DNA of 25,314 bases from a virus, in IMG/VR virus record IMGVR_UViG_3300021599_000496, positions 2,460-27,773 of that record. One strand, 5' to 3'. A model generated the notes under the pieces. That model saw only the letters and a list, made by a program, of their open reading frames with translations, was not told where the DNA came from and did not search any database. The position numbers were made by a program, and so were the translations under genes. Each line of letters opens with the position of its first letter. Positions within the stretch are counted from its first letter, which is position 1. Shown here in pieces: positions 1,116 to 22,308 of the stretch.

Positions 1116-1361
1116 TCACTTAAAAGATTTTTTACGAAGTTTTTCTATGGCTTCTTTAATCTTGTTTAAGTAACGTTCTTGAGGTTTAGTCTTATTGAGG
1201 AACCAATGATAGACAGTCTGCCGTGTGACCCCGAAAAATTCTGCTACATGAGAAACAGGAATCTCTCGCTCGGCACATATCAACCCCAGTTGAACCCAGG
1301 GTAGTGACGTGTCCTGCTCCTTTATCCTGTCAACAAGTCTCTTTGTGTATCCAATTTCCAT
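1116..1361 (-). CDS. Small helix-turn-helix protein, putative regulator
   Basis: An 81-residue protein with a Cro/XRE-like helix-turn-helix at about residues 35-56 (PVSHVAEFFGVTRQTVYHWF), followed by a basic C-terminal helix (KIKEAIEKLRKKSFK). Such small proteins usually bind DNA as dimers; a target is not evident. It sits between the candidate ssDNA-binding protein and the primase in one transcription direction. No Shine-Dalgarno is visible upstream of ATG 1361. Instead a very stable hairpin with a TTCG loop (1370-1387) ends 8 nt before the start codon, so translation may depend on coupling or be controlled by this structure. DNA binding is inferred from the motif only. Confidence 0.75.
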   Translation of the reverse strand: MEIGYTKRLVDRIKEQDTSLPWVQLGLICAEREIPVSHVAEFFGVTRQTVYHWFLNKTKPQERYLNKIKEAIEKLRKKSFK

Positions 1362-4617: not shown

Positions 4618-4629
4618 AAAGAAATTGTG

Positions 4630-4654
4630 TCGAGTGGAACTCGGTTCCGTTCGA
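4630..4654 (-). repeat. Dispersed hairpin repeat, copy 1
   Basis: The core GGAAC-TCG-GTTCC is at 4636-4648. Flanks extend the stem through two G-U-type pairs to an outer TCGA/TCGA, giving 11 paired positions around a 3-nt loop. It fills the gap between the PD-(D/E)XK nuclease stop and the HNH-like start. Confidence 0.85.
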
Positions 4655-5326
4655 TTATGCGTGTTTTCCGTTATGAATGCAAGAGTGCACCGCACAATAA
4701 TTGCGGCAAGTGAAGTTGGGTTTGGGGTTCCAAACATCCTGTGTATAAGCGGATTCTAGGGGGACATACAGATATAGTGCATCGCGCAGAAGTCCGAGAA
4801 AATCGCCACGCACATAGTCTTTCTTTATAAAGTCATTAGACACTACGAACATCAACGCACCCTTTATCCGTTCGACTTCGGGGAAGTGTGCAAAGGTAGC
4901 CATCGCCAAGAAGTCTAATTGCTTAGTGTCGGCATACTTGGCATTACGCCCTGTCTTGTAGTCAATGATAAATGCAGTCTTATCTTTTACGATTACAAGA
5001 TCGGCTATTCCACGCCACCAAACTTGTTGGTCAAAGAAACCGCAGGGTTTCCCGTCGTCTGACAACCCCATCTTATACTCACAAAGTTTTTGTCCTTCGA
5101 TTGCATTAAGGGTATCTAATTGGGATTTGATGAACAAGAATTGTTCGGGCAACGGGGTTCCGTCTTTGATGTAGAGTTCGGCTGCCTTATGAAGTTGTTC
5201 TCCATAAAGAAGTTGCTCTGTCTTGGGTTCAACAATGTCTTTTACCACCCGTAGATGGTGATACTTCTTAGGGCATTGGTGAAACAGGGTGATGCTTGAA
5301 TACGACCAAGCGGGGGGTTTACTCAT
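4655..5326 (-). CDS. PD-(D/E)XK exonuclease, Cas4/RecB-like, probable Fe-S cluster
   Basis: A 223-residue protein of the PDDEXK_1 (RecB/AddB/Cas4) type. The N-terminus SYSSITLFHQCPKKY (8-22) is the typical opening of the family. Nuclease residues follow in order: H46 (GEQLHKAAE), D109 (GIADLVIV), D122 and K124 (FIIDYKTG) and Q136 (QLDFLA). Four cysteines, C18 and C207-x3-C211-x4-C216, match the split arrangement that holds a 4Fe-4S cluster in Cas4 and AddB. Single-strand exonuclease activity in recombination or end processing is expected. The gene overlaps the 57-aa gene upstream by 8 bp, and the neighbouring polymerase and VRR-NUC genes support a replication/recombination role. No cas1 or cas2 is near, so a CRISPR function is not suggested. 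Confidence 0.88.
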   Translation of the reverse strand: MSKPPAWSYSSITLFHQCPKKYHHLRVVKDIVEPKTEQLLYGEQLHKAAELYIKDGTPLPEQFLFIKSQLDTLNAIEGQKLCEYKMGLSDDGKPCGFFDQQVWWRGIADLVIVKDKTAFIIDYKTGRNAKYADTKQLDFLAMATFAHFPEVERIKGALMFVVSNDFIKKDYVRGDFLGLLRDALYLYVPLESAYTQDVWNPKPNFTCRNYCAVHSCIHNGKHA

Positions 5327-5492
5327 CGGGTAAGTTAGAAATGATTGCGGCTTTCATCATTCGTAATTCTACAATCGCTAAGTTTATATGATCGACTGCT
5401 GACTTGTAATCATTCTTCAGTATGAGTTGGACAGTTCGTTCTAGTTCTTTCTTTCCCTCAATGTAATGGGGGGCATAGTCAAGTTTTACCAT
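5319..5492 (-). CDS. 57-aa hypothetical protein between polymerase and nuclease
   Basis: A short gene starting MVKLDYAPHYIEGKKELERT, followed by LILKNDYKSAVDHINLAIVELRMMKAA and ending NLPDE. It is preceded by AGGAGAT 5 nt before ATG 5492, a strong ribosome site. It begins 18 bp after the polymerase stop and overlaps the nuclease start by 8 bp, so it sits tightly in the operon. The product looks like two amphipathic helices. I do not recognise a family. Coding status rests on the ribosome site, the packing and the protein-like helix pattern. Confidence 0.7.
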   Translation of the reverse strand: MVKLDYAPHYIEGKKELERTVQLILKNDYKSAVDHINLAIVELRMMKAAIISNLPDE

Positions 5493-5509
5493 AGTTATCT
5501 CCTATTAAA

Positions 5510-7330
5510 TTAACACTCTCCATAGTTTGCACCAACACCTGATTCGCAGTTCAAGGGTAGTCCAATGGCCCACTCAGGTATCCATCGCATACAGGATTCA
5601 ACATACTCTTTAGCCTGGTATTGCTCTTCGATAGGCGCGATACAAGCAATTGCATCGTGGACAGTCAAGACCACGCGGTAGCGTTCTGCAATCTTCAACA
5701 TCTGCTGACCAACCACAATTCTAGCCAATGCTTGCACCACATTCTCTATTACTTTCCCGCCGTAAATTTTTACCCACTCGTTCTTTCGGGCTTCGTATTC
5801 AAACCCACCATCCGATGTAGGCCGCAGATTGTTGTATTTAACATGGAGTCCTGACGGGAGCCGGATACCTTTGGCCCCTTCAACCATCAACACTTTGTGC
5901 TGACCAAGCGGAGCGTTCCTGTTTTTAAGAATCGCAGGTAACGAGTTCTGTCCTTCATACCACAACTGTTTAACCTTGAAGTTCCGTTCCCGATAAACCT
6001 GAATGATTCGCTCGGCTTCATGCTTCTCCAACTTAACCTTTTGCAACGCAAGCATATTCTTAAACTTCTCTGCGCCCATGCCGTAGCCGCAACCTAGCAC
6101 AACAGTCTTGCCTATGAAGCGTTCATCCTTCGTTATATCTTCGGGGGGTTTGCTGTATATCGCTGACGCCATGATGCGATAAACATCTTCTCCTGTGCTG
6201 AATGCTTGGACTATGTCCTGCTGACCCGCCAACCATGCAAGCATACGAGCCTCAATCTGTGATGAGTCTGCATCAATAATCACATAGCCTTCGGGCGCAC
6301 ATATAGAGTTCTTCAGGGCTGATGAGCCTGTGCGTGAGGGTAAGTTCTGAAGATTCAAACTGTCTGCACCACCCCATCTGCCTGTGTGTGCGGCATAGTA
6401 TTTAAGTGGAACCGGCAAAGCGCCTCTGTTACCTATACCTATAAACCTCTCTGTGCGTGTTTCTTCAAGGGTGCTTTTAACGCCGAGCCTAGCCGCCACC
6501 GCAGTTTGCACCGCAACATCTTCATGGTTTTGCAAGGCAAGAAACTCTTTATCAGTCTTAGCAAATGCCAATGCTTCTTTGCCTGTGGTCGGACTGATTT
6601 TCATTGGGGGATCAACTCCACGCCCACGCAACCATTCTGCAAACTTGTTGTTGGACATGATAGTCTCTGTATCCAGGCCAGACGCAACAAGCAACTTGTC
6701 CTTGAAGTCTCTGATCTGCGCTAAATGTTTAGTAAGTAAGTCAACATCCACCATGAGAACGGGTTCGGCAAACATCCGTATCGTTAGGTCAATCAGTTTT
6801 AGTTCCTGTCTTGGGAAGTCTAGCAACATCTTCTTGAATAACTTAAATGTAATGTCCACATCGTTACAACAATACAACCCATAGTTCCGTAGTTCGGATT
6901 TTGTGAAGTCATGTCTGCGCTTACCAATCGCACTCTCAACTTCTATGCCTTTCGTGCCAACGCCGTATAACTCAGCAAGTTTTGCCAACGACTTTGACTG
7001 CGTTGCGGGAAGTAAGGCTTGACCCATAGACATGGTATCTACCCAACCCAAAGGCACAATGCCAAAACGCCATACAAGAATGGCGGCATCAAACATTGTG
7101 TTATGTGCAAGGACTAGTGAAGACGGCCAATCAAACTGCCCCAACCAATCCTTAACATCTTGGTGTGTGCCACTAAACCATTTGACATCTCCACCGTTCT
7201 CTTTAACTGCTACACCAATTACTTCAAACGAATCTGATCTTACATACTCCTCTGTCGTGATCTTGCTTAACGAATAGTCTCTGTCATAGTAAGTCTCAAA
7301 GTCTATCGTCAACAACTTTGTTGATGACAT
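5510..7330 (-). CDS. polA: Family A DNA polymerase with 3'-5' exonuclease domain
   Basis: 606 residues. The proofreading domain has Exo I DFET (D10, E12), Exo II AHNTMFDAA (N77, D81) and Exo III YCCND (Y153, D157). The polymerase domain has HTGRWGG...LNLQNLP (315-331), motif A IIDADSSQIEAR (D353), motif B R404-x3-K408-x7-YG (Y416) and motif C VHDA (H558, D559). The residue equivalent to E. coli Pol I Phe762 is Leu412. Motif C has Ala560 where Pol I has Glu. There is no 5'-3' exonuclease domain, as is usual in phage enzymes. This is the replicative polymerase. It overlaps the VRR-NUC gene by 35 bp; the start MSSTKLLTIDFETYY places the first exonuclease motif at residue 10, as expected. Confidence 0.96.
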   Translation of the reverse strand: MSSTKLLTIDFETYYDRDYSLSKITTEEYVRSDSFEVIGVAVKENGGDVKWFSGTHQDVKDWLGQFDWPSSLVLAHNTMFDAAILVWRFGIVPLGWVDTMSMGQALLPATQSKSLAKLAELYGVGTKGIEVESAIGKRRHDFTKSELRNYGLYCCNDVDITFKLFKKMLLDFPRQELKLIDLTIRMFAEPVLMVDVDLLTKHLAQIRDFKDKLLVASGLDTETIMSNNKFAEWLRGRGVDPPMKISPTTGKEALAFAKTDKEFLALQNHEDVAVQTAVAARLGVKSTLEETRTERFIGIGNRGALPVPLKYYAAHTGRWGGADSLNLQNLPSRTGSSALKNSICAPEGYVIIDADSSQIEARMLAWLAGQQDIVQAFSTGEDVYRIMASAIYSKPPEDITKDERFIGKTVVLGCGYGMGAEKFKNMLALQKVKLEKHEAERIIQVYRERNFKVKQLWYEGQNSLPAILKNRNAPLGQHKVLMVEGAKGIRLPSGLHVKYNNLRPTSDGGFEYEARKNEWVKIYGGKVIENVVQALARIVVGQQMLKIAERYRVVLTVHDAIACIAPIEEQYQAKEYVESCMRWIPEWAIGLPLNCESGVGANYGEC

Positions 7331-7598
7331 TTTTTAACTCCTCTACATTCTCTGCGTTAATAACAACGGCGATACCCCCTTGGTCTTTAATACTTGCCAA
7401 GTTCTTTTGTTGCAACGCAGTAGGCTGATCCTTCGGCGTAGCCTTACATTCGATGGCTACAAACCGACCACGCACACAGGCAACAATATCGGGTATTCCA
7501 CTAGATCCGTAACCGGACATTACAGGGTAAAACCAATAGACACCATAACTGTCAAGCAGTTTGGTTACTCGCGTCTTTACTTTCTTCTCCGGAGTCAT
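7296..7598 (-). CDS. VRR-NUC domain nuclease
   Basis: A 100-residue stand-alone VRR-NUC (PD-(D/E)XK superfamily) protein. Catalytic residues are readable: GIPDIVA (D37), FVAIECKA (E50, K52) and the following Q63/Q64 in ALQQKNL, with an N-terminal Glu in a helix (PEKKVKTRVTKLL). Phage VRR-NUC proteins are thought to act as structure-specific nucleases, for instance on branched DNA. It overlaps the polymerase start by 35 bp and the upstream 292-aa gene by 47 bp, so these genes are translationally linked. Its size is that of phage stand-alone versions. Confidence 0.92.
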   Translation of the reverse strand: MTPEKKVKTRVTKLLDSYGVYWFYPVMSGYGSSGIPDIVACVRGRFVAIECKATPKDQPTALQQKNLASIKDQGGIAVVINAENVEELKNVINKVVDDRL

Positions 7599-8430
7599 TT
7601 GGTTTTCTTAAGACTTTAAGATCGTTACCATACAAGAAGTATGAGTTTGCTTCAACCTTGACCCCAATATCTTCAAGCATTTCGTTGTGGGGTGCGATCC
7701 TCAACAGGGCAACCTTCTGCTGAACAAAGTCAGGCATAGCCTCAAAGGAATCGTATTCCTCGACTCTATTTTCATTATTACCATAGATATTCAGGATCCA
7801 CCGATCATTAACATTGAAAGCGACTATCTGCATGGCTCCATTGACACCATTGTAGTTATCCCGCACCCAATGAGAAAGCGTGCGTAACTCTCTGTATTCC
7901 TTGACTCCAGCACAAAACTTTTCGCCAAGCATAGCATGAGGAATCTTATTCTCAAAGTAATCTAATACTTTGTTCATGTCGTTATGCAGTAACTCTGTCC
8001 AACAACTTCTTGCTTTTTCTTCTGCTCTACGCATTTCATAATACAACTTGTGTCTACCAGCACTTACTATTTCATCTGCACGCTCTTGAAAAGTAAACGG
8101 CCTTACAAATTGATCGACTATATTAGTAATCAACTTAACTTTTTTGGTTCGCTTCTCGTCTCTAGGACTGCGTTCATTTTTAATCAAGCGAGACTCTGCA
8201 ACAAATATATGTTCATCCGCATTCATATGTTGATGATCATTGATCCACAATCTAGCAAACGCTTTATCAGGGTGAACATCTGTAAAAAGATTTAGGGATA
8301 TGATCAACTCCGGATCAGCGTCACTTCGTTTGCTTGTCCTGTAACCTTTTACAGTTATGTTGGAGTATCGCTTGTTCAAGCGATCAACTGCAACTTGAAG
8401 TTTGGGATGTAATTGTGCGTTAGTTTTCAT
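7552..8430 (-). CDS. Unknown 292-aa protein downstream of the MoxR/VWA set
   Basis: Start ATG 8430 has AAGAAAGGAAAACACC directly before it. The protein has an N-terminal alpha/beta section (HPKLQVAVDRLNKRY; LIISLNLFTDVHPDKAFARLWIND), a charged middle rich in Arg/Lys/Glu (about 85-150) and a C-terminal alpha/beta section (AMQIVAFNVNDRWILNIYGNN). No signal peptide, membrane segment or known catalytic motif is visible, and I recognise no family. It follows the 281-aa unknown by 18 bp and overlaps VRR-NUC by 47 bp, so it could belong to either the AAA/VWA module or the replication genes. Confidence 0.8.
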   Translation of the reverse strand: MKTNAQLHPKLQVAVDRLNKRYSNITVKGYRTSKRSDADPELIISLNLFTDVHPDKAFARLWINDHQHMNADEHIFVAESRLIKNERSPRDEKRTKKVKLITNIVDQFVRPFTFQERADEIVSAGRHKLYYEMRRAEEKARSCWTELLHNDMNKVLDYFENKIPHAMLGEKFCAGVKEYRELRTLSHWVRDNYNGVNGAMQIVAFNVNDRWILNIYGNNENRVEEYDSFEAMPDFVQQKVALLRIAPHNEMLEDIGVKVEANSYFLYGNDLKVLRKPNDSGEESKDASNQTA

Positions 8431-8448
8431 GGTGTTTTCCTTTCTTAG

Positions 8449-9294
8449 TTATCGAATGATTGTGGTGTTCGGCACATCGCGCATTTCATAGACTATGTCT
8501 TTGTGCTTATCTTTAATCCATGAATAAATGGCAGACTTCAAATCGTAGGTGTGGCATCTGTAACCATCTTCGTAATAGCGATACTTAGCATTATTACCTA
8601 CCAAGTTATTGAAGGCAGACGCAAAAATATCAGGTGCAGACTCCATAGTTTTATTGGCAACTAACCTAAGCAATTCGGGATTCATACCACCATAAGTTTT
8701 CCGATATGTTTCTACATCTTCTTCGGAATACGAGCCGCCTGATAGTTTGTTCATAACTTCAATATACTTAATGAAGTCTTTATACTGCTTGATGATGGGC
8801 AAATACTTGTCGCGCACCACATAATGCTTCTGCTCTACAACAAGTTTCCCTTCAAGAATGTAATCAAGTCCTTGTTCTGTCTTGACACATTTCAAAGTCA
8901 ATGGGTTGTCATCGGTAACAGGGTATTGAATATGCTTTGTCTTGTCATACAAATACCATTTGTGTCTAGAAGCGTATCTAACTTTGAATCTATTCTTGAA
9001 CATAGCACCAACTAATTGCCTAGTGTTCAAAGGCCAACGACCTACAAAGAAAGTGATTCTGTTATTAGGATAAAACCTAACACACACATCGCTTGCATAA
9101 GTGCCTACATCAATGGTGTGTTTCGGTTCGTTTGGGAATTTACTTTTGTCAGTAAACGCAATCCACCTTGCATGGTAATATCGGCGTGCGCCCAACGGGC
9201 GGATACCATTTGTCCCACGAATAGGGTTAACTGCATTTACGAATGTGTCAGCGTCTGCATAACACACCATCTTTGGAACATCGTAGACTATCAT
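8449..9294 (-). CDS. Conserved-looking phage protein of unknown function, 281 aa
   Basis: Start ATG 9294 follows GAAAGGAG at good spacing. The N-terminal third contains NPIRGTNGIRPLGARRYYH (23-41), then TYASDVCVRFYPNNRITFF and NTRQLVGAMF. This resembles a family I recall from many phages, with an N-terminal 'PIRG...RPLGxRR' segment followed by a 'V.Y.T.VV.Y.P.G.I...' strand; no function is known to me. The rest is helical and Tyr/Lys-rich. It lies 12 bp after the DUF3150-like gene and is in the same transcript as the MoxR and VWA genes. The function is open; co-transcription with that module is the only clue. Confidence 0.8.
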   Translation of the reverse strand: MIVYDVPKMVCYADADTFVNAVNPIRGTNGIRPLGARRYYHARWIAFTDKSKFPNEPKHTIDVGTYASDVCVRFYPNNRITFFVGRWPLNTRQLVGAMFKNRFKVRYASRHKWYLYDKTKHIQYPVTDDNPLTLKCVKTEQGLDYILEGKLVVEQKHYVVRDKYLPIIKQYKDFIKYIEVMNKLSGGSYSEEDVETYRKTYGGMNPELLRLVANKTMESAPDIFASAFNNLVGNNAKYRYYEDGYRCHTYDLKSAIYSWIKDKHKDIVYEMRDVPNTTIIR

Positions 9295-9306
9295 TTCATA
9301 CTCCTT

Positions 9307-10173
9307 TCAAAAAGACATACGCTTAAGAATGTCATCAACTTCAGACTTCACATGATTGCGTGTATCAGTTTCCTCACGCAATTCCTTAGCGGAGATACCG
9401 AACATGGCTTTCTCCAATTGCTTACGGGACTTCTCCAACTCAGGATCGTTGGTAATGTTCATGCACTTCAACATATCAATCAGTTCGATTGCGTTGTCTA
9501 CCAATGAATCACGGAAGATCTTCTTGTTCTCATCTTCTGCGTAATCCAAGCGTTCACTCATGCGAGTCAAGCACTCATGCAAACGGCTCCATGCATCTTT
9601 CATAGCAGTCTGCACTCGTGCATCGAACTGAGACTCATACCTACCAACAAGTTCTTGTATTCCTTCGTTACTAATATCAACGCGAAAGTCACCCGACTGT
9701 GGGACAGGCGTGTATTCATACTTGAAGTAAAACTTATGAGCGATTACATCAGGAAGCGGATAGTCCTCACGATTGAATAACTCACCGAGAGTAAAAGCCG
9801 CCGCAGTAATCATGTTGTTATAGTCACCAAGGAACTTGTTCTTGAGTGCATCAAACTCAGTTTCAAACTGACGCATCTTTGTGTTGTATTCCATGAAGCG
9901 ACCCATGACTAGCAACCTAGTGCCTGAATCCGACCAAGGCAAAGTGTTGTTGTAGTGATAGGTTCGGACTTGGGTTACAAACTTCTGAATCTCGTCAAGC
10001 GCATTGTCGCCTGCAAATAACTTCTTATGAAAGTTACCTGCCCTAGCCTTGGTGTTCTTGGCTATATCAATCTCTTCCGACACACGCTTGTCGTTCTTAC
10101 GCGCAGTCCATATGGCGATGTTCAAATCCACCAACACGGAACTTGATGAAATGCTTGTGACTTCTTGGTTCAT
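9307..10173 (-). CDS. DUF3150-like protein, partner of AAA/VWA genes
   Basis: The frame reaches 10242, but ATG 10173 (MNQEVTSISSS) has GAAAGGAGAAACACC immediately upstream and is taken as the start (288 aa). The N-terminus VLVDLNIAIWTARKNDKRVSEEI and the mostly helical body resemble DUF3150, whose members typically lie next to a MoxR/CobS-like ATPase and a VWA/CobT-like protein. That is the arrangement here. DUF3150 has no established activity. Residues 55-160 and 195-288 are strongly helical and charged, which suits an adaptor or scaffold protein. The family call rests on the opening motif and gene context, and is less certain than for its two neighbours. Confidence 0.7.
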   Translation of the reverse strand: MNQEVTSISSSSVLVDLNIAIWTARKNDKRVSEEIDIAKNTKARAGNFHKKLFAGDNALDEIQKFVTQVRTYHYNNTLPWSDSGTRLLVMGRFMEYNTKMRQFETEFDALKNKFLGDYNNMITAAAFTLGELFNREDYPLPDVIAHKFYFKYEYTPVPQSGDFRVDISNEGIQELVGRYESQFDARVQTAMKDAWSRLHECLTRMSERLDYAEDENKKIFRDSLVDNAIELIDMLKCMNITNDPELEKSRKQLEKAMFGISAKELREETDTRNHVKSEVDDILKRMSF

Positions 10174-10186
10174 GGTGTTTCTCCTT

Positions 10187-11467
10187 TCATTTAACATAGA
10201 CAACTTGACCATGCGTAGGCATAGCCTTGTTATCGCCAACAACTACCCACAACACAGGTGCATTGATACCATGTGGATCACCCCACCCTGGCACATACCC
10301 ATCAGTTAGAACTACGATTGCGTCAGGCGGAACGGAACTCGGTTCCTTTCGCAAATAGTCAAACACACAGGCAGGGTCTGTTCCACCACCGCCACTCATC
10401 TTTATATCCATCATCGTCTCACCCGCATCACGCTCAAATCGTTTGTGCGATTCAACTTCGGTATCCCACGCCAATACATCAAGGATTTCGGGATTGACTT
10501 CGGTTCGTATGGATTCCAACTGCGAGAAGAACTCTTGCCTCAGATCATGGTTCACAGATCCTGAAACATCTGTTGCACCAACGATGCGAGAGGTTGTCTC
10601 GCTGTATGCGCTAGGCATATATATGCCAAGATGTTGTAGCCTCTTGTTCGGTTGACGATAAGTAGAAAGATCCTTGCCTGCCATCGTAGCCTTCACAAAG
10701 TCACGCATTACATCACGCCAATCCACATATGGCTCAAGCAACTCTTCCAAACCCAACTCGGAATCACCACGACCAATGCCATACTTCTTGCAAAGATCTT
10801 TGGACAACATCTGACCTTGGCGTATTGCTTGGTCAATCTGAGAACGCAACTGATCCTTCTCGGCTTGCGTCATGTTGTTATCCATAATCTTTTCGTGATT
10901 GTCGAGTGCCGATGGACTATCGGTGTTTGCTTTTGGATTACTTGGCGGTTGCGTTGAGGGTTTGTCCTTCCCACCATCATTGTTGTTCTTAGATGGGCTA
11001 TTGGGCGGCGGCTTTTGTTGAGACTTGAGAATCCGATACACAGATCCTGCATCCATGCCACGGAACTGCTCGTCATAGATACCACCAATAGTCGGGAACT
11101 TCACGATGCGATCAAACTGTCCGACAGGTGCGCCCCAATCTTCAATCATTAGATTGATAACTGCATCGCACGCAACACCCGCAGTCTCTGCATCTTCATT
11201 AAACAAATGATTCCATATAGTCCCATGCTGAAACATCTTGTGGAAGTTCTCATGCGCTACGACAAAGCACAACTCCTGATCATCTAACTGATCAACAAAC
11301 TCAGGGTCATACCACTCGTTGCGACCATCGGTGCAGGCGGTTCCCCACCCTTCCTCGACAGTTACCTTACCCATCAACATGATGCCGGACAGGGCGGCAA
11401 ACTTCGGATGCGTCATCAAGGCAACCCTTGCTTTCGCAACCCGTTGTTCAGGTGTTAATTTACTCAT
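10187..11467 (-). CDS. Metallopeptidase-like and VWA-like fusion protein (DUF2201 type)
   Basis: 426 residues in two parts. The N-terminal part has a zinc-protease HExxH signature, AHENFH (His72, Glu73, His76), with VACDAVINLMIED (98-110) probably giving the third ligand. A low-complexity Pro/Ser/Asn/Lys linker spans about 151-190. The C-terminal VWA-like domain has the MIDAS DxSxS in GATDVSGS (D300, S302, S304), GGTD (361-364) and VVLTDG (385-390). This matches the DUF2201 layout. Such proteins pair with MoxR ATPases, and the MoxR gene is 39 bp upstream. The GGAAC hairpin repeat lies in this gene, giving EPSS at 375-378 between the MIDAS loops. The start has AAGGAAGG 5-6 nt upstream. Confidence 0.9.
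   Translation of the reverse strand: MSKLTPEQRVAKARVALMTHPKFAALSGIMLMGKVTVEEGWGTACTDGRNEWYDPEFVDQLDDQELCFVVAHENFHKMFQHGTIWNHLFNEDAETAGVACDAVINLMIEDWGAPVGQFDRIVKFPTIGGIYDEQFRGMDAGSVYRILKSQQKPPPNSPSKNNNDGGKDKPSTQPPSNPKANTDSPSALDNHEKIMDNNMTQAEKDQLRSQIDQAIRQGQMLSKDLCKKYGIGRGDSELGLEELLEPYVDWRDVMRDFVKATMAGKDLSTYRQPNKRLQHLGIYMPSAYSETTSRIVGATDVSGSVNHDLRQEFFSQLESIRTEVNPEILDVLAWDTEVESHKRFERDAGETMMDIKMSGGGGTDPACVFDYLRKEPSSVPPDAIVVLTDGYVPGWGDPHGINAPVLWVVVGDNKAMPTHGQVVYVK
10334..10346 (-). repeat. Dispersed hairpin repeat, copy 2 (inside a gene)
   Basis: A perfect GGAAC-TCG-GTTCC core lies inside the metallopeptidase/VWA gene. On the coding strand it is read as GAA-CCG-AGT-TCC (Glu-Pro-Ser-Ser). Pairing outside the core is poor here, apart from a few A-T/G-C positions. 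Confidence 0.85.
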
Positions 11468-11487
11468 AGTGCCTTCCTTTCTTGAAT

Positions 11488-11500
11488 GGAACTCGGTTCC
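11488..11500 (-). repeat. Dispersed hairpin repeat, copy 3
   Basis: A perfect core lies in the 39-bp gap between the MoxR gene stop (11507) and the start of the metallopeptidase/VWA gene (11467). It sits about 20 nt upstream of that start codon, just before its AAGAAAGGAAGG ribosome site. Confidence 0.85.
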
Positions 11501-11506
11501 GTTGGA

Positions 11507-12592
11507 CTACTTAACATCGGGCAACATCCAATGATTCTCGACTGCCCACTTTGCAAACTCTATGTTACGACTTGCAAACTCCCGCTTGTCCTTGATCTTG
11601 TAAAGATTAGTGCCGAACAACGCTTGTGATTCTCTCGGCAATCGCTTCATGTATTTCACGATTGCAGTCAGGTTAGCCTTGTCTGCACGCATCATCGCTT
11701 GTTGCACCAAGATACAGACAGCGATTGGATTCTCAGGAACCTTGCAGTTGTTGGGATCACGCTCAATCACAGCCCAATCTTCAAGTTCTTTCTCCACAGT
11801 AGAGTAGGCTTGAATATCTGCCGCCGCGCTTGGCCCCAACACACCGACCAAGTTTGCATGGATAAGATGTTCAGGCAGTTGATCACGCTTGTGCATAATG
11901 ATTGATGCACGGGCCAATGAACGGGGCGCAACGAACGACCGCTTCGGTAACTGCGGGAAAAAGATATACGGGTTAGGTGGCACGCCGTTCTTAAAGTCCT
12001 TGTCGCTGAAGTCCGTATACGACTGAAGACAATGCGGGTTCTTGGTAGCCCACGCCATCAAAGTCGGATGTTGATTGTTTGATCGACCCCACTCGCACCA
12101 CTCTTCTGCATTCGGCTTGCGAACATTCAGCCAATCAATACGAGAGATAAAGTGTGGTGGCATATTGTCGCCAACACCATCGCCACTCAGGTTACCCGTA
12201 GCAAACACGACAGACTTGGTAGTCAGGTGCTTGTCATACAGACGCCTATCGTTGAATGTTGGCATCAACATATTCATCACAGGGCGGGGAGACTTGGTCA
12301 GCTCGTCTAGCAACATGACAACATCTTTACCCTTGTGCATTCCAAAGCGTGCGTTCGGCAGAAACTCCGTGCATCCCGCTTCTTTGTCCTGATACGGAGT
12401 GCCGAGGTCGCCCAACTCAAGAGTCGCACAGTCAATCGGCGCATACTCATAGCCCAACTCTGCGGCAATCTCTTGACCCATAGCAGTTTTGCCAATGCCA
12501 GGCTCACCGCATAGGAATATCGGAACATCTGCGCCGAACTCCAAGACAGACCGCTTGGCTTCGGCTAGAGATACTGTTTGCATTTCAATCAT
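11507..12592 (-). CDS. MoxR-family AAA+ ATPase
   Basis: 361 residues. Walker A GEPGIGKT (29-36), Walker B VVMLLDE (91-97), sensor 1 FATGN (130-134) and a probable arginine finger in HFISRID (R151) are all present, with ELGDLGTPY (59-67) as the pore-facing segment typical of MoxR/CobS-like ATPases. Families of this kind remodel or load a VWA partner protein using ATP. The partner is encoded immediately downstream (metallopeptidase/VWA), followed by DUF3150. The start ATG 12592 follows AAGAAAGGAAACACACC. Activity as a hexameric chaperone-like ATPase is known for the family; the target in this phage is unknown. Confidence 0.93.
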   Translation of the reverse strand: MIEMQTVSLAEAKRSVLEFGADVPIFLCGEPGIGKTAMGQEIAAELGYEYAPIDCATLELGDLGTPYQDKEAGCTEFLPNARFGMHKGKDVVMLLDELTKSPRPVMNMLMPTFNDRRLYDKHLTTKSVVFATGNLSGDGVGDNMPPHFISRIDWLNVRKPNAEEWCEWGRSNNQHPTLMAWATKNPHCLQSYTDFSDKDFKNGVPPNPYIFFPQLPKRSFVAPRSLARASIIMHKRDQLPEHLIHANLVGVLGPSAAADIQAYSTVEKELEDWAVIERDPNNCKVPENPIAVCILVQQAMMRADKANLTAIVKYMKRLPRESQALFGTNLYKIKDKREFASRNIEFAKWAVENHWMLPDVK

Positions 12593-12612
12593 GGTGTGTT
12601 TCCTTTCTTGGT

Positions 12613-13050
12613 TTAGTTAGATTTTGAAATACGGGTTACAAGACCCTCAAGGTATCGAATGATAGCCTGCTGATCCTTGATCTCGTTATACAGATCTCGG
12701 TTCTTAACAAGCAATTCAGCAACATCAAAACTACGAGGCGGGACAAACTTAGCCTTGGGATCAAACTGAGTGAACGCATTCATCTGCTCACCTGATATCG
12801 GTTTGGCTTTAACATCTTTCTTCGTCTTGCCGCCCCTGATATACGGCCCAACTTTCTGCAACTTCTTGGGGTGATGCGGTGTCTTGCGAACATAGGCACG
12901 GACTTTCTCCTTCGCTTGTTGTTTAAGTTTATGTCGGATGTTGTAGATCCGACTCTTTGATACGCCAACTGTCTCGGCAATCTCTTCGGTTGGCATTCCC
13001 TTTTGCAAGGCATTGATTACTGCAATAACTTTTTGGCTTTTCGGTTTCAT
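12613..13050 (-). CDS. HTH protein with coiled-coil tail, putative regulator
   Basis: 145 residues with a homeodomain-like/resolvase-type helix-turn-helix at about 20-41 (PTEEIAETVGVSKSRIYNIR). A long Lys-rich linker (43-90: KQQAKEKVRAYVRKTPHHPK) follows, then a C-terminal helix (VAELLVKNRDLYNEIKDQQA) that may oligomerise. The ribosome site GGAGG lies inside the end of the preceding tiny reading frame, suggesting coupling. It is encoded 20 bp before the MoxR gene in the same direction, so it may control the module or be a packaging/recombination accessory. DNA binding is inferred from the HTH. Confidence 0.8.
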   Translation of the reverse strand: MKPKSQKVIAVINALQKGMPTEEIAETVGVSKSRIYNIRHKLKQQAKEKVRAYVRKTPHHPKKLQKVGPYIRGGKTKKDVKAKPISGEQMNAFTQFDPKAKFVPPRSFDVAELLVKNRDLYNEIKDQQAIIRYLEGLVTRISKSN

Positions 13051-13054
13051 GGCA

Positions 13055-13141
13055 TTACCTCCAAATAAAAATGATTAAGTGAATAGTTAAATAGATCATC
13101 AACGCAACGACTAACCAATACGCTAACTGATCCGACTTCAT
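13055..13141 (-). CDS. Possible 28-aa single-span membrane peptide
   Basis: The frame reads MKSDQLAYWLVVALMIYLTI followed by HLIIFIWR and a stop. It begins 10 nt after the stop of the 68-aa membrane protein and ends 4 nt before the HTH gene ATG. After a short polar N-terminus it is hydrophobic throughout, which fits one membrane helix. The SD is weak, so coupling to the upstream gene would be needed. A random frame with such a clean hydrophobic pattern in a compact operon is unlikely but possible. Confidence 0.4.
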   Translation of the reverse strand: MKSDQLAYWLVVALMIYLTIHLIIFIWR

Positions 13142-13151
13142 GCGGTCATCT

Positions 13152-13358
13152 TTATAAAAGATGTTCCGTTGAACTGCACTTCTGAACGGAACTCGGTTCC
13201 GCCCGTTTGGCAGACTGCTTCTCATTACGACTCTCCTTTCTTATATCAAGGTAAATAACAACTGCTACTCCAAACAAAACTACAACTGCAAACCATGCAA
13301 CAGATTGTGCGGCTTCATGACTATCATAATCTTGATACTGCACTCTATAAATTTTCAT
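13152..13358 (-). CDS. Small single-pass membrane protein with repeat-encoded tail
   Basis: The frame opens at 13391, but ATG 13358 has GAGGAGG 6 nt upstream and overlaps the NinX gene end by 14 bp, so the product is taken as 68 aa (MKIYRVQYQD start). Residues about 15-37 (AQSVAWFAVVVLFGVAVVIY) form one membrane helix, followed by a basic tail. The tail contains Glu-Pro-Ser-Ser encoded by hairpin repeat copy 4, so the last 20 residues may be a late addition. Function unknown; it could be a superinfection-exclusion or holin-like accessory, but nothing proves this. Confidence 0.6.
   Translation of the reverse strand: MKIYRVQYQDYDSHEAAQSVAWFAVVVLFGVAVVIYLDIRKESRNEKQSAKRAEPSSVQKCSSTEHLL
13188..13200 (-). 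repeat. Dispersed hairpin repeat, copy 4 (inside a gene)
   Basis: A perfect core lies in the 3' end of the 68-aa membrane protein gene, read as Glu-Pro-Ser-Ser. Its left arm with the neighbouring AAC can alternatively pair with GTTCCGTT at about 13164-13171 (8 bp, 13-14 nt loop), so two exclusive hairpins are possible. Confidence 0.85.
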
Positions 13359-13698
13359 CACACACCTCCTCGGGAACCTCCACTTCTTCACCTAACTTAC
13401 TAAATACATAGCACCTCATGGCGGCGATTAGGGGGGTTGCTCCTAACGAATATGTTCGACAGTCGGAAGATAACGCCAAAAGATGCGTGTCATAACACTG
13501 ATCAAGACTTATCTTCTCCCGCTCAATGATCGGCCCACCATGCTCCCAATCTTCTGAGGGTCTATAAAGATCTCCATAGGTTATGTTAGGGGTAATCAGG
13601 AACAACAGACCACACTCAAACTTAACTTGTTTATCTTCAGCCTTCGCCACGGCCCAATCCAACTGCGCACCGCTTAACTCACTTGTTTTTACTTTCAT
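13345..13698 (-). CDS. ninX: NinX-like protein (DUF2591)
   Basis: A 117-residue protein with the family's signature segments: MKVKTSELSGAQLDWAVAKA at the start, DWEHGGPIIEREKI (50-63), and near the end GATPLIAAMRCYVFSKLG followed by EVEVPEE. It belongs to the DUF2591/NinX family first named from the nin region of lambdoid phages; its function is not established. The start overlaps the preceding stop as ATGA, with GGAGGAAGAGAA as a strong ribosome site. The length is normal for the family. Confidence 0.92.
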   Translation of the reverse strand: MKVKTSELSGAQLDWAVAKAEDKQVKFECGLLFLITPNITYGDLYRPSEDWEHGGPIIEREKISLDQCYDTHLLALSSDCRTYSLGATPLIAAMRCYVFSKLGEEVEVPEEVCDENL

Positions 13699-14186
13699 TT
13701 CTCTTCCTCCTCTTCCTTAATAAATTCACCAAGAACATCATTCTTTGCCGATCCCAAAGGCAACTTACTACTTACATCAATCGAACGGGCAAGACTCATT
13801 TCATCCCTTTGTTTGACTTCGGGATAGTCTTCATACCACTTAACACTCTCGACAAAGAACACAATGTTCTGATCATCCCAACCCCATGAGTCTGCGTGCC
13901 ACTCACCAAATAACTTACCGCCTTGTGCGTTCACAAACAGTTTTAGGTGCGTGCAGAACTGATCAAACTGCGCCTTCTCTCTTCCCTTTCCTGAGATGCA
14001 TATGCCAACATCAGATCTGTAACCCATGATTGACCTCCGTATTTGTTTGTGTATCGGGTGATTGGAATTGGTTATCTCTCTCCGGAACTGCTCGGAACTG
14101 TCTACGACTTGTTTCCAAGACCTCTCTTGCCCAACGATTGCACGCAGATACGCCGCATTCCGTTTGATCCTGTGCTTGATTCTCAT
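13695..14186 (-). CDS. Hypothetical protein with 'MGYRSDV' domain; two possible starts
   Basis: The open frame from ATG 14186 (163 aa) starts 8 nt after the preceding stop with GAGGA upstream, which leaves no gap in the operon. An in-frame ATG at 14027 has a much stronger site (GGAGG, 7 nt) and opens MGYRSDVGICISG, the usual N-terminus of a phage protein family I recall as functionally uncharacterised. Either the gene is the 110-aa form preceded by a 170-bp spacer, or both forms are made. The extension (MRIKHRIKRNAAYLRAIV) is strongly basic. The conserved part (about 54-163) contains GEWHADSWGWDDQNIVFF and ends in an acidic run EEEEEK. I annotate the long form because the frame is uninterrupted, with low certainty on the start. 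Confidence 0.65.
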   Translation of the reverse strand: MRIKHRIKRNAAYLRAIVGQERSWKQVVDSSEQFRREITNSNHPIHKQIRRSIMGYRSDVGICISGKGREKAQFDQFCTHLKLFVNAQGGKLFGEWHADSWGWDDQNIVFFVESVKWYEDYPEVKQRDEMSLARSIDVSSKLPLGSAKNDVLGEFIKEEEEEK

Positions 14187-14195
14187 GGTCTATCC

Positions 14196-14483
14196 TCATT
14201 CCTTTGCCTTTCTCCAATCGGTCATAGTCCACGACTGCATGGCCTGCTTCATGCTCGGTGGTTTTTGTTCGGGTTTAGGTTTGGGTTTAACGGAACTCGG
14301 TTCCGGTGGGGATTGTCTTTTGTTGATACGATTTAACACACCCCAAGTTGTTGTCATGTAATACTTACGCTCGCACATGGATGTAAGGCCGATCTTCTCG
14401 CCATCAATCCACGCGATGTAAAAGGGCTTGCCGTGAAACCGCACGACTTCGCCCAACGAATAACCTTCGGTTTGCTTGCTCAT
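14196..14483 (-). CDS. Hypothetical protein with proline/lysine linker carrying a repeat
   Basis: A 95-residue protein. The first 50 residues (GYSLGEVVRFHGKPFYIAWI; GLTSMCERKYYMTTTWGVL) look like a small beta-barrel. A Pro/Lys-rich linker follows (about 55-75) that includes Glu-Pro-Ser-Ser from hairpin repeat copy 5, then a short C-terminal helix (MKQAMQSWTMTDWRKAKE). It overlaps the upstream gene by 4 bp (ATGA). Function unknown. The repeat sits in the linker, where an extra few residues would be tolerated. Confidence 0.7.
   Translation of the reverse strand: MSKQTEGYSLGEVVRFHGKPFYIAWIDGEKIGLTSMCERKYYMTTTWGVLNRINKRQSPPEPSSVKPKPKPEQKPPSMKQAMQSWTMTDWRKAKE
14292..14304 (-). repeat. Dispersed hairpin repeat, copy 5 (inside a gene)
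   Basis: A perfect core lies inside the 95-aa gene, in the stretch encoding its Pro/Lys linker, and is again read as Glu-Pro-Ser-Ser. Confidence 0.85.
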
Positions 14484-14677
14484 ATTGATACCCCCTGTTC
14501 CTCGCTCAGTTGATGCAGTTTGTATATGTAGTGGGCAAAGCGAATGATCGACTTGCCACGCTCAGTCTTGGGCTTTAGTTCTTTGTCTGAGTTGGCATAC
14601 TCGTAATACGCATCAGACGCCTTGACCATGTAGAAGAACAATTCCTCGTGGGTCATGTCCTCAAACTTCTTCTTCAT
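14480..14677 (-). CDS. Small helical hypothetical protein
   Basis: 65 residues, almost entirely helical by pattern (MTHEELFFYMVKASDAYYEY; GKSIIRFAHYIYKLHQLSEE). It overlaps both neighbours by ATGA, so it is translated as part of a coupled chain of early genes. AGAGGTG precedes ATG 14677. No family is recognised. Confidence 0.7.
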   Translation of the reverse strand: MKKKFEDMTHEELFFYMVKASDAYYEYANSDKELKPKTERGKSIIRFAHYIYKLHQLSEEQGVSI

Positions 14678-14874
14678 TTCCGCACCTCTTTCTGATTGGT
14701 CATCTTCAGTTCCTCGGGGTCATAGATCAGTTGATACGCACCCTTGCCATACGGGATACCGACTGTCCACTTGACCATACGCGCTTCACGCTCTCCGCAG
14801 GTCTTGCAGGTTTCATACCCCGCCTCGTATCGGGCGGGTGTTACAACGGCTTTCTTACATTTTGCGCATTTCAT
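14674..14874 (-). CDS. Small zinc-ribbon protein
   Basis: 66 residues starting MKCAKCKKAVVTPARYEAGY, with two CxxC pairs (MKCAKC and YETCKTCGE), the pattern of a small zinc ribbon. The tail GIPYGKGAYQLIYDPEELK recalls a family of short early phage proteins of unknown function. The chosen ATG 14874 has AGGAGAAACATT in front. The frame is open much further upstream (to beyond 15171), and an in-frame ATG at 14901 has the ACACCATG context seen in other genes of this arm, so a nine-residue longer product is possible. It is the first convincing gene of the early operon. Confidence 0.7.
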   Translation of the reverse strand: MKCAKCKKAVVTPARYEAGYETCKTCGEREARMVKWTVGIPYGKGAYQLIYDPEELKMTNQKEVRK

Positions 14875-15143
14875 AATGTTTCTCCTGTAAAGATGTTGCA
14901 TGGTGTTATGGTGTATTTCGGACAACAACTCGTTCCTAAAAAACACACCGCCGAATAGATTGGTCTTACAAGTGAGTCCCGTTTTACGCATACGGGACAG
15001 GAGACGAACCACATACACAAACGCTACTCCACTAGGCCAATCCACTCGGCGGTATGTTCTACCGCTTTTGCCTTCTGCTATTTCGTTGCAGTCGGGGTTA
15101 CCGAAAGGTTCAGGCATGGGGGAACAAATAAGTAGGCATGACC

Positions 15144-15156
15144 GGAACTCGGTTCC
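15144..15156 (-). repeat. Dispersed hairpin repeat, copy 6
   Basis: A perfect core in the non-coding leader region of the early operon. Confidence 0.85.
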
Positions 15157-15510
15157 ACTCGGCTCCGGCAACGATCAACAAGAGCAAGACGCACCACCAC
15201 AACAGTTGAGAACTTGGTTTGTATGATTTTTCTCAGGGTGTTGTGGATCGGTATCTTGATTGATGGGGTCGTGTCTAATTTGTTACCCGCAGAGATACTG
15301 CTACTTGGCATCGCTTGTTCAACAGGGAGAACCTTCAGGACTTTGGTTTGTCCTGCTTTGCGGTTCTGTGAATGGACTGTGTTTGAATAGGTCGGGTTGG
15401 GCTTTATTGCGCCACCTATACTTTATTCCCGCCTACCTACGCACCGCCTTATGCACGACTTGGAGTTCGTGTTTGCGACTTGCAAGATACGCCTACTCTG
15501 CACCCCGAAC

Positions 15511-15523
15511 GGAACTCGGTTCC
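15511..15523 (-). repeat. Dispersed hairpin repeat, copy 7
   Basis: A perfect core in the leader, about 70 nt downstream of the proposed promoter. The flanks (CCCCGAAC on one side, GGTCGAGG on the other) extend the stem by six further pairs, interrupted by two mismatches, making this the longest stem of the set. Confidence 0.85.
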
Positions 15524-15592
15524 GGTCGAGGCTTTTGTGCAACTAGATTGTAAAAGAGCAGGGAAGTAGTGACAGACTACCTCCGAGGGGAG

Positions 15593-15621
15593 AGTATACC
15601 ATAGATTAGACAACAACGCAA
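15593..15621 (-). promoter_or_regulatory. Candidate early promoter, extended -10, directing the left arm
   Basis: On the minus strand TTGCGT (15621-15616) and TATACT (15598-15593) are 17 bp apart, and TGG precedes the -10 box (extended -10). It lies at the edge of the AT-rich block and points into the minus-strand early genes. Confidence 0.5.
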
Positions 15622-15870
15622 TATATTTGACAACTATTTTTGCACATTGACACAAACGAGAAATCATACAAAAGGCACATAAATACTACTTGCACATTGG
15701 AACATTTGGACATTCTTGAGAGCCGCATCAGGACTCGTTTGTGCAAATGTGTAATGTGGATTGTAAAAGAAATAAGGTAGTTGTAAATGTTCAAATGTGC
15801 AAAAACTGAAATCGGGTTTGGAATTTTTGCACATTCGATAAGTGCTTGATTTGCAAAGGGAAAATGCGTT

Positions 15871-15898
15871 GAATGTGCAAATGTGCAAATGTGCAAAG
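15871..15898 (+). repeat. Three tandem 8-bp iterons (ATGTGCAA)
   Basis: TGTGCAAA occurs three times head to tail with exact 8-bp spacing at 15874, 15882 and 15890, preceded by GAA. Single copies of the same octamer lie on both sides. Confidence 0.85.
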
Positions 15899-15984
15899 GG
15901 TTTTAAGTGAGCGCGCCAAAAAATTGGAAAAACTGCATGGGTGGGGGGAGAGAGGGTTAATTTAGATTTCTCTCTTTTTTTTAT

Positions 15985-16009
15985 GGAACATTTGAACATT
16001 TGAACATTC
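15985..16009 (+). repeat. 9-bp tandem repeat (AACATTTG type)
   Basis: GAACATTT-type units are repeated with a 9-bp period from GGAACATTTG to GAACATTC. A shorter relative is at 15699-15715 and a single unit near 16065. Confidence 0.8.
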
Positions 16010-16137
16010 GGCCCGCAAACCCGCATGGTTGAGCCAAAGTTGAATGTGCAAAAGTTTTTTTGCGTTTGGACATTACAGACAATTCAATGCTGGCGCGGGT
16101 CTGCGTGTTTTGGTTAATTATTGACCACCCCGCAAAG

Positions 16138-16152
16138 CCTTATGCCATAAGG
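16138..16152. repeat. Palindrome CCTTATG-C-CATAAGG
   Basis: A perfect inverted repeat with 7-bp arms and a 1-bp centre, 26 bp from the DnaA box. It is a likely protein-binding site in the candidate origin. Confidence 0.6.
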
Positions 16153-16177
16153 GTTTGAGCCGTTTTTGATGCGTAAC

Positions 16178-16186
16178 TGTGGATAA
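16178..16186 (-). promoter_or_regulatory. DnaA box (TTATCCACA)
   Basis: TGTGGATAA on the plus strand is the exact complement of the consensus DnaA box TTATCCACA. Only one perfect copy was found in the window; TTATGCACG near 15440 is a one-mismatch relative. Confidence 0.6.
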
Positions 16187-16310
16187 CTTTTTTGGAGGGT
16201 GCTTTTTGGGGTCGCGCGTGTCAGCCGACTCTGTTGTCACTGGTTTCGATTGTCGTGCGTTGGGGGTTGCAGGGGGTTGCGGTTGTGTGGTGCGGGGGAA
16301 GATGTTGAGT

Positions 16311-16323
16311 GGAACTGAGTTCC
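16311..16323 (-). repeat. Dispersed hairpin repeat, copy 8 (variant loop)
   Basis: GGAAC-TGA-GTTCC: the arms are intact and the 3-nt centre differs (TGA instead of TCG). It lies in the non-coding stretch between the candidate origin and the terminator. Confidence 0.8.
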
Positions 16324-16367
16324 GTTGGGTTGGGTGGCGAATGTTTGGCATTTGCGCGGTGCAGACG

Positions 16368-16402
16368 AAAAAAAAACCCCGCAAGCCCGAAGGCCTGCGG
16401 GG
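16368..16402 (-). terminator. Rho-independent terminator of the 195-aa gene
   Basis: On the minus strand an 11-position stem (CCCCGCAGGCC with GGCTTGCGGGG, one G-U pair) closes a TTCG loop and is followed by nine T. It ends 19 bp beyond the stop of the minus-strand gene at 16421 and would isolate it from the origin region. Confidence 0.93.
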
Positions 16403-16420
16403 TAAAGTGCTTGTGTCTAA

Positions 16421-17008
16421 TTACTTCTGTCCTGCGGGGACTGCATACTTGATCTTGGACTTGAACCACTTAGTAGCCCATGCCTGTAATTCAACGCTCG
16501 CTTGCTTGAGATCGTTCTTGTAGCACGCGTTATAACATCTTTGCCCATGATCTTGGACAATCTCTTGCACGCTCTTTTTGTTCTTAGAACTAGACTGCCG
16601 ATTGTTTGGATCTTTATCACTTTTTATTTCGCCACGCGAGGGATTGATTGATACATTTACAGCAAGACCCTTTGACTCAAAGTGCGCTTTGTAAAATATC
16701 ACGCGGATTTGATTCGTAATACTTTTATCAGCATCAAAAAACTTCTTGCCATATGATTGCTGACACTCCGCGTAAAACACTTTACGGGCCGCGCTTACTG
16801 CATCGCCTGCCGTATCTTCGGCATTGAACGCATTGACTAATGCAAGCGCGCTAGACTGCAACTGTTTCAAACGCGCATTGATCGCATCGCCTATTTGCTT
16901 GGCCTTGCGAGTAGCACCTGCCACGCGCTTGTTTGTTGCTTCCCCTTTCAAGTGTGATTGAATGGGGGACTCTTTTACTGCAACTTCTTTCTTGGCGGAT
17001 TTAGCCAT
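16421..17008 (-). CDS. Hypothetical 195-aa protein in its own transcription unit
   Basis: ATG 17008 (MAKSAKKEVAVKESPIQS) is chosen over the upstream 17077 because the longer frame would translate the hairpin repeat; AGGAG lies about 10 nt upstream. The N-terminus is Lys/Ala-rich, followed by helices (GDAINARLKQLQSSALALVN; AVSAARKVFYAECQQSYGKK) and a section ending KKSVQEIVQDHGQRC with several Cys/Tyr. A C-terminal helix (VELQAWATKWFKSKIKY) closes it. No family is recognised. The gene is the only one between the candidate origin and the late genes and has its own terminator, so a role in replication initiation or in the early/late switch is an attractive guess, but not shown. Confidence 0.8.
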   Translation of the reverse strand: MAKSAKKEVAVKESPIQSHLKGEATNKRVAGATRKAKQIGDAINARLKQLQSSALALVNAFNAEDTAGDAVSAARKVFYAECQQSYGKKFFDADKSITNQIRVIFYKAHFESKGLAVNVSINPSRGEIKSDKDPNNRQSSSKNKKSVQEIVQDHGQRCYNACYKNDLKQASVELQAWATKWFKSKIKYAVPAGQK

Positions 17009-17014
17009 TTGATT

Positions 17015-17036
17015 ACATCTCCTGTAAACAAGTTGA
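17015..17036 (-). repeat. 22-bp direct repeat, copy A (leader of 195-aa gene)
   Basis: It matches 17274-17295 at 21 of 22 positions (CCTGTAAACAAGTTGA in both). On the minus strand it reads TCAACTTGTTTACAGGAG, and contains the ribosome site of the gene at 17008. A looser relative (TCTCCTGTAAAGATGTTG) precedes the zinc-ribbon gene at about 14880. Confidence 0.85.
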
Positions 17037-17042
17037 TAGACA

Positions 17043-17067
17043 GCGAGTGGAACTCGGTTCCGTTCGC
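17043..17067 (-). repeat. Dispersed hairpin repeat, copy 9
   Basis: The core is at 17049-17061. The flanks match copy 1 except that the outermost pair is G-C instead of T-A, so the extended stem is kept. It lies in the leader of the 195-aa gene, next to a second hairpin (17071-17094). Confidence 0.85.
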
Positions 17068-22115: not shown

Positions 22116-22308
22116 GTCGTTTGAAGAATTATTTTTAGAAAAAGTAAAGGTGGAAGTAGAACGCTACACAGAAGATGTTGTCATGGGATCAGCCAACGAT
22201 TACTCAGAGTATCGGGAAAAAGTTGGCTTCCTTCGCGGCATGATGAGTGCAGTTGGTATTTTTGAAGAAATCATTAATAGAGCAAGAAAGGAAAACTTAG
22301 ATGATTAG
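22108..22308 (+). CDS. Small hypothetical protein, GTG start, head module
   Basis: 66 residues (AKSFEELFLEKVKVEVERYT; VGFLRGMMSAVGIFEEIINRARKE), mostly helical. It starts at GTG 22108, with AAAGGGG about 11 nt upstream, and overlaps the portal gene by 8 bp and the GroES-like gene by 8 bp. Small helical proteins in this slot are common in phage head operons, but I cannot assign a function. Confidence 0.75.
   Translation: MAKSFEELFLEKVKVEVERYTEDVVMGSANDYSEYREKVGFLRGMMSAVGIFEEIINRARKENLDD

Follow-up and report, generated by a model that had tools for sequence, protein, structure and literature searches.

The stretch of viral DNA analysed here (the window; 25,314 nt, positions 2,460 to 27,773 of IMG/VR record IMGVR_UViG_3300021599_000496) carries a short inverted repeat at nine places in its early, minus-strand arm. 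We give a probability of about 0.55 to the reading, suggested by comparison among related sequences, that the repeat represents dispersed operators, 23-bp palindromes made of two YSARY-GGAAC half-sites and read by one phage-encoded dimeric DNA-binding protein. The palindromes look like fast-changing docking sites for a phage DNA-binding regulator. A previous sequence-only reading of the window had offered four candidates for what it described as a 13-bp hairpin repeat. The operator family is the best supported of these, and the mobile element and the processing hairpin are disfavoured. On the fourth, a host-derived repeat, the comparison made was of one named relative's palindrome, which is infrequent in a Bradyrhizobium genome that does not belong to its own host.

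The repeat and its 23-bp unit

The nine sites are listed with their 23-bp spans and 13-bp cores; counterparts are given as positions in the related records G002, G003, G004 and L237.

Site 1: 17044..17066 (core 17049-17061), minus strand; in the leader preceding the first early gene, whose ATG is near 17008; G002 42897, G003 10083
Site 2: 16306..16328 (core 16311-16323), minus strand; centre variant TCA/TGA; same zone as G002 43696, G003 10878/10995
Site 3: 15506..15528 (core 15511-15523), minus strand; no called early-strand gene there; G002 44462, G003 11644
Site 4: 15139..15161 (core 15144-15156), minus strand; no called early-strand gene there; G002 44814, G003 12021
Site 5: 14287..14309 (core 14292-14304), minus strand; inside a gene of 95 amino acids (aa); homologous site in G002 and G003
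Site 6: 13183..13205 (core 13188-13200), minus strand; about 140 bp upstream of the gene for HTH145, a helix-turn-helix (HTH) protein
Site 7: 11483..11505 (core 11488-11500), minus strand; gap between MoxR stop codon and VWA Shine-Dalgarno sequence; G002 48333, G003 15846, G004 3098
Site 8: 10329..10351 (core 10334-10346), minus strand; interior of the VWA gene; nothing inserted compared with three relatives
Site 9: 4631..4653 (core 4636-4648), minus strand; between the exonuclease stop codon and the following gene; G002 55413, G003 22740, G004 10024, L237 2546

The sequence GGAACTCGGTTCC is present exactly at eight window positions and GGAACTGAGTTCC at 16311, all between 4.6 and 17.1 kb, so that the nine coordinates and the identity of eight cores were correctly given by the sequence-only reading. 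Its claim that the 13-mer exceeds chance expectation was confirmed by shuffling: matches with up to two mismatches averaged 0.41 and never exceeded 3 in 100 shuffles, against nine observed. The pattern GGAAC-N3-GTTCC arose on average 0.028 times per shuffle (maximum 1 in 500 first-order shuffles), and any palindrome with 5-bp arms and a spacer of 0-9 reached at most three copies in 30 shuffles, again against nine. A shared orientation, which had been proposed for all copies, holds for the eight exact ones. The core at 16311 has no secure orientation because it differs from the motif by two mismatches on the plus strand and by one on the minus strand, and the centres in relatives run both ways.

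No further exact copies were found in the window's own 27.8-kb record. The 43.9-kb record G001, which is near-identical to the window (at least 99.68% identity in each of five aligned blocks), has the same nine sites and none beyond these. The proposed confinement to the minus-strand arm holds in the window, in its own record (for the exact motif) and in G001. Of the scans that had been suggested for the 13-mer, those of G001 and of relatives gave these same nine sites in G001 and, in relatives, 11 copies, 5 copies or a different palindrome. Among named phages, a near-DNA search with 14 kb gave no match; a scan of viral contigs with a 14-base pattern gave single matches per stretch, among the matches listed. 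A tRNA search found none, and an Rfam search of the window, with E up to 1, likewise gave no match.

The conserved unit is longer than the 13 bp first described. G001, G003 and G004 have 25 GGAAC sites between them, which share the consensus YSARY-GGAAC-YSR-GTTCC-RYTSR, and in the 50 pooled half-sites Y was found at -5 in 49, G or C at -4 in 49, A at -3 in 48, R at -2 in 42 and Y at -1 in 49. Since the flanks are conserved on both sides, the full unit is a 23-bp palindrome with a 3-bp centre. Flank pairing showed no excess over shuffled flanks (P 0.90 sense, 0.71 antisense) and no pairing covariation. The folding z-scores of one leader were -0.2 and -0.5 on its two strands, and that of one 23-mer was -1.0. 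Asymmetric centres occur in both orientations in G012 (TGAAAA 4, TTTTCA 1), and the counts elsewhere were AA 3 and TT 2 in G024, A 7 and T 2 in G019, and TCA 7, TGA 2 and CGA 2 in G003. The absence of flank covariation, the unremarkable folding and the two-way centres suggest a double-stranded DNA site recognised by a symmetric dimer, not a hairpin.

Three sites had been placed inside genes. The site at 10334 is inside the VWA gene and that at 14292 inside the 95-aa gene, and the one at 13188 lies in a doubtful open reading frame of 56 aa. With the ATG near 4618 taken as the gene start, the site at 4636 falls in a leader; this ATG is shared by the relatives compared. The place homologous to site 5 also carries a site in G002 and G003 though the protein differs, and in G003 it lies in another reading frame; judged by such comparisons, the sites are kept at the DNA level, whatever the reading frame. 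At site 8 four VWA proteins align without gaps (KEPSSV / SERDAV / AESSSV / EEQSSI), so substitution is the most likely origin of this copy.

Across 16 genomes, which are not independent, a Shine-Dalgarno sequence and start codon follow within 60 nt for 62 of 115 sites; randomly placed points in the stretch concerned would give 23.6. Nearly all of these sites (58 of 62) are 11-40 nt from the start codon, and a common order in leaders is stop codon, palindrome, Shine-Dalgarno sequence, ATG.

Some other features of this DNA were seen. A short repeat, CAACTTGTTTACAGG(T/A)GATGTA, has two copies upstream of the first early gene (about 17294 and about 17035, minus strand). The window lacks four pieces that are present in G001 (151, 104, 112 and 244 bp, at 13319, 13808, 16617 and 24148), which are probably assembly deletions; at 24148, in the head-gene region, G002 and G003 are likewise longer than the window. 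The G001 record also encodes a Rap1a-like immunity-protein domain (L223:15451-15792, minus strand) near methyltransferase and glycosyltransferase-like genes.

Palindromes in related phages

The core is present in 9, 11 and 5 copies in G001, G003 and G004, respectively. G002 and G005, whose VWA protein and polymerase are 76% and 89% identical to those of the window, have no GGAAC-N3-GTTCC and instead ten TTAAAC-N3-GTTTAA. With homology read from the order of genes and from the flanks, nine of the ten G002 sites coincided with a site of G001, G003 or G004, and seven with a site of G001 itself. The outer half-site is common to both lineages (A at -3 in 48/50 GGAAC and 20/20 TTAAAC half-sites), and the two forms differ by a change of the inner GG to TA, flanked outwardly by an invariant T. 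Hardly any copies have a single arm mismatch (2, 0, 1, 1 and 0 places in G001 to G005), so the copies are kept exact; between lineages all of them appear, from these sequences, to have been rewritten together. The TTAAAC form is also found in L237 and L238, at the last of these places, the sole one within their contigs.

More distant relatives were gathered by terminase, VWA, polymerase and MoxR. Their palindromes, written as half-site and spacer, include CTAACA-2, CCTAACA-1, CCTAGTTT-1, TTTCATAC-1, ATTAAAC-2, TGTAGT-4 and TAAACC-2 and, in addition, GTTAGC-6, GTTCC-6, CTGAC-5, CGGACA-2, CCGACA-2 and CCGACA-3. The 163 loci of at least 9 kb formed 113 clusters, 44 of them with a MoxR or VWA gene. 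A palindrome, called when at least four copies were present and more than in any of 10 shuffles, was found in 26 of these 44 cassette loci and in 6 of 76 loci lacking the cassette (the latter had their own redundancy filter, so 44 and 76 do not sum to 113). Two of the 26 are doubtful, L277 by its motif and L307 because its top motif is not TTTCATAC, which has three copies there. The six positives lacking the cassette comprise two low-complexity runs, two early fragments with similar palindromes (L076 and L304) and two others.

In ten long contigs (G001-G003, G009, G011, G012, G019, G024, G026 and G028) the copies are confined to one stretch, which adjoins the terminase in the eight compared in this respect (G001-G003, G009, G011, G012, G019 and G024). 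The two outliers beyond it, TTAAA-5 in G002 and GTAGT-4 in G012 (one copy each), have just the shorter arm. An isolated relative by polymerase (36% identity), Rhizobium phage RHph_TM3_14A (60.9 kb), has 15 exact copies of GTTACC-N6-GGTAAC. With a spacer of 5 or 6 and up to one mismatch, the palindrome occurs at 50 places in both arms, late genes included, of the 50 kb read. These palindromes are not among the annotated features of that phage, and the 3-kb gene annotated there as a putative integrase is homologous to the primase of the window's phage family. In the 50 kb read of each of three other named relatives, DSL-LC04, HTVC027P and KPP25, no such palindrome was found beyond low-complexity runs. 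The window has a GroES-like co-chaperonin gene between portal and head genes (22301-22702), which is annotated in DSL-LC04 and HTVC027P too. Terminase relatives in bacterial genomes numbered 55, mostly metagenome-assembled.

The cassette genes and the two HTH genes of the window are as follows.

MoxR-type AAA ATPase: 11507..12592, minus strand; marker of the early cassette
VWA/metallopeptidase-like DUF2201 protein: 10187..11467, minus strand; early-cassette marker; PHROG label HNH endonuclease
HTH145: 12613..13050, minus strand; HTH and C-terminal helix; candidate reader, recognition helix does not track the palindrome
HTH81: 1116..1361, minus strand; small, conserved HTH protein; rejected as reader after a direct test

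The MoxR, VWA/DUF2201 and DUF3150 genes are consecutive in the window (9307-12592) and occur in 23, 24 and 21 of 25 palindrome genomes, respectively. Distant relatives of the VWA protein are found in 75-79 kb phages such as Presley and SBP1.

The putative reader protein and the weighing of explanations

The operator family draws its support from the use of one palindrome per genome type at all its sites, from the upkeep of the DNA whatever the frame and from the restriction to the early stretch. The reader would be a single dimer, probably of phage origin, that binds all sites of a genome and acts on transcription. In one pair, G024 (CGGACA-2) and G028 (CCGACA-2), the palindromes differ at 95% polymerase identity, which favours a phage-encoded reader over a host one. 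From the position of the sites and the analogy with stoperators we infer that the reader may mainly repress or road-block early transcription, shutting the early genes down as infection proceeds. Such shut-off is our preferred guess, and exclusion of relatives would be a by-product, the divergence of palindromes presumably freeing each phage from its relatives' regulators. A bolder extension, possible though doubtful, is that these phages, an apparently non-integrating clade, have a heteroimmunity-like operator code. Lineage-specific long palindromes at about 5-15 places would be rewritten together when the reader changes specificity; cross-repression between co-infecting relatives, not lysogeny, would drive their divergence, and the reader might belong to an unrecognised family.

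Several results weigh against the operator reading. Only 2 of the 9 sites in G001 meet the Shine-Dalgarno criterion. Promoter-like matches in the 4-18 kb region numbered 13, fewer than the 21.8 in shuffles, and gave no promoter link; two are near sites, one ending about 19 bp before site 3 and one beginning at the edge of site 9. By our test 18 of the 44 cassette loci have no such palindrome. The genome-wide sites of RHph_TM3_14A, late genes included, fit early control poorly and make us doubt a purely early role. None of 13 records, several of them fragments, matches integrase, resolvase or ParB (PF00589, PF00239, PF02195), so a repressor of lysogeny is unsupported. Finally, no reader was established among the HTH81, HTH145 and HTH197 candidates. 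HTH81 occurs in 13 of the 25 palindrome genomes and in none of three palindrome-negative ones, and its recognition helix first seemed to track the palindrome (H in GGAAC phages, N in G002). It was rejected because L237 and L238 combine the recognition helix seen in GGAAC phages with a TTAAAC-type site (one each); by sequence it is missing from G024, G026, G028 and the Rhizobium phage. In HTH145 the first 50 residues contain a confident HTH and the C-terminus a helix, and the protein differs strongly among phages with a common core. As a tracking reader it failed in both directions: two helices go with the single palindrome of the TAACA group, and a single helix is shared by G026 and L097, whose palindromes differ.

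The HTH145 family comprises 18 distinct proteins (E below 1e-10 in an iterated search from the L264 N-terminus) with variable C-termini (DUF3310, DUF6378 or helix), and the palindrome often lies in or just after the gene. Foldseek returned 0 matches for HTH145 at E up to 0.001, with short HTH alignments to resolvases and response regulators. Early HTH-like proteins with such varied C-termini are encoded at G009 38767-39171, L264 7590-8105 and L303 1984-2421, and in the first two the palindrome is within or right after the gene. HTH197, found in the CGGACA/CCGACA clade, evolves fast, being 44-76% identical to that of G024, compared with 84-95% for MoxR, VWA and polymerase. Its helix residue is H or P with CGGACA-2, E with CCGACA-2 and K with CCGACA-3; Y in L402, also with CCGACA-3, is compatible with the class pattern, but the helix does not predict the spacer. 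This partial tracking is no more than suggestive for HTH197 as the reader, and its structure model (mean predicted local distance difference test score 48.7) was too poor for use. HTH67, past the primase, was rejected since it occurs in the palindrome-negative DSL-LC04. Seven genes are closer to those of G003 and G004 than to those of G002: HTH81 (by one bit), a 204-aa head-region gene, a GYRSDV protein and four past the primase, where the G002 contig ends. HTH153 of G002 matches KORA just under the Pfam cut-off (26.1 vs 26.7 bits) and is a candidate only.

The sites might instead organise or segregate DNA, a nucleoid-, partition- or replication-type phage protein bridging or marking it after the logic of MatP, Noc and KorB, with secondary effects on transcription. 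We regard this as rather unlikely: the intragenic copies, the lack of clear promoters at sites and the 50 places in both arms of RHph_TM3_14A agree with it, but the single early stretch in the ten long contigs of closer relatives and the clustering just before starts do not, and ParB_N (PF02195) was absent from the 13 records, some incomplete. If middle genes were driven from activator sites or from a phage-specific promoter element, the placement before early genes would be accounted for, and in G024, G028 and L104 the first site, by eye, is just upstream of a TTGAC(A/T) promoter-like sequence. This is unlikely, as the spacing of 11-40 nt to the start codon leaves little room for an upstream-activated promoter and the orientation of the centre varies.

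That the phage exploits sites bound by a host regulator is quite unlikely. The G002 sequence TTAAACCGAGTTTAA happens to read TTAA-N7-TTAA, the CtrA box, but the homologous G001 sites have no TTAA; the GAAC/GTTC arms resemble the Gram-positive LexA box of the SOS response (GAAC-N4-GTTC, 4-bp centre), but all nine sites have N3. The G024/G028 difference also opposes it, as does the count of GTTACC-N6-GGTAAC, which occurs twice in the 9.2 Mb of a Bradyrhizobium that is not this phage's host (once for the reversed control) and 15 times in the 60.9-kb Rhizobium phage. Hairpins in mRNA, controlling processing, stability or translation through an RNA-binding protein, would suit the 5-bp stem, the 3-nt loop and the many leaders with a site between stop codon and Shine-Dalgarno sequence. 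We hold them very unlikely given the flank pairing at shuffled level, the lack of covariation, the ordinary folding energies and the two-way asymmetric centres, as in G012. A mobile palindromic element spreading by insertion would explain the many identical copies and is hardly credible, since the VWA copy, the one locus compared in this respect, aligns with other residues in four proteins with no length change, unlike an insertion of a repetitive extragenic palindrome or a miniature inverted-repeat transposable element, and relatives have different palindromes at the same places.

Relation to known systems

If the operator reading is true, stoperator-like control would exist outside lysogeny. 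The co-change in specificity of a regulator and its many dispersed sites is an old question, which is made testable by a natural series of related phages with different palindromes at largely the same places. The test material consists of homologous positions, neighbouring lineages (GGAAC/TTAAAC; CGGACA-2, CCGACA-2, CCGACA-3) and an isolated phage that has about 50 sites. Among the papers listed by a literature search, judged by title and abstract opening, none describes such sites in this phage group, which does not prove absence.

The stoperators of cluster A mycobacteriophages (L5, Bxb1 Rep) are described as 13-bp sites, 20-30 per genome, dispersed and mostly off promoters, with a consensus that differs between subclusters and mostly one orientation (PMC6550527); they are reported to be asymmetric (PMC9283540). 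The palindromes share with them the many near-identical dispersed sites and the lineage-specific consensus. They differ in being symmetric 23-bp units with centres both ways, and because of this symmetry they are not stoperators by definition. They also differ in their restriction to the early stretch, in the absence of an integrase from the 13 records and in that no repressor was identified, no search with a Rep model having been made.

SPBRE of Bacillus phage SPbeta is bound by MrpR in the promoter regions of ten named genes and was suspected from sequence 24 years before that reader was found (PMC10516654). The resemblance lies in the repeated element and its layout. SPBRE is a 15-bp motif at prophage promoters whose reader has a tyrosine-recombinase fold, whereas no prophage context was found here.

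The conserved inverted repeats of phiC31 are palindromic operators scattered through early genes, as here, but phiC31 is a temperate Streptomyces phage with a known repressor. The KorA/KorB operators of IncP plasmids, in which one regulator serves many dispersed palindromes, are similar in dispersal and differ in being plasmid-borne with known readers. Judged by layout and lineage-specific consensus, stoperators and SPBRE/MrpR are the nearest known kinds to these palindromes.

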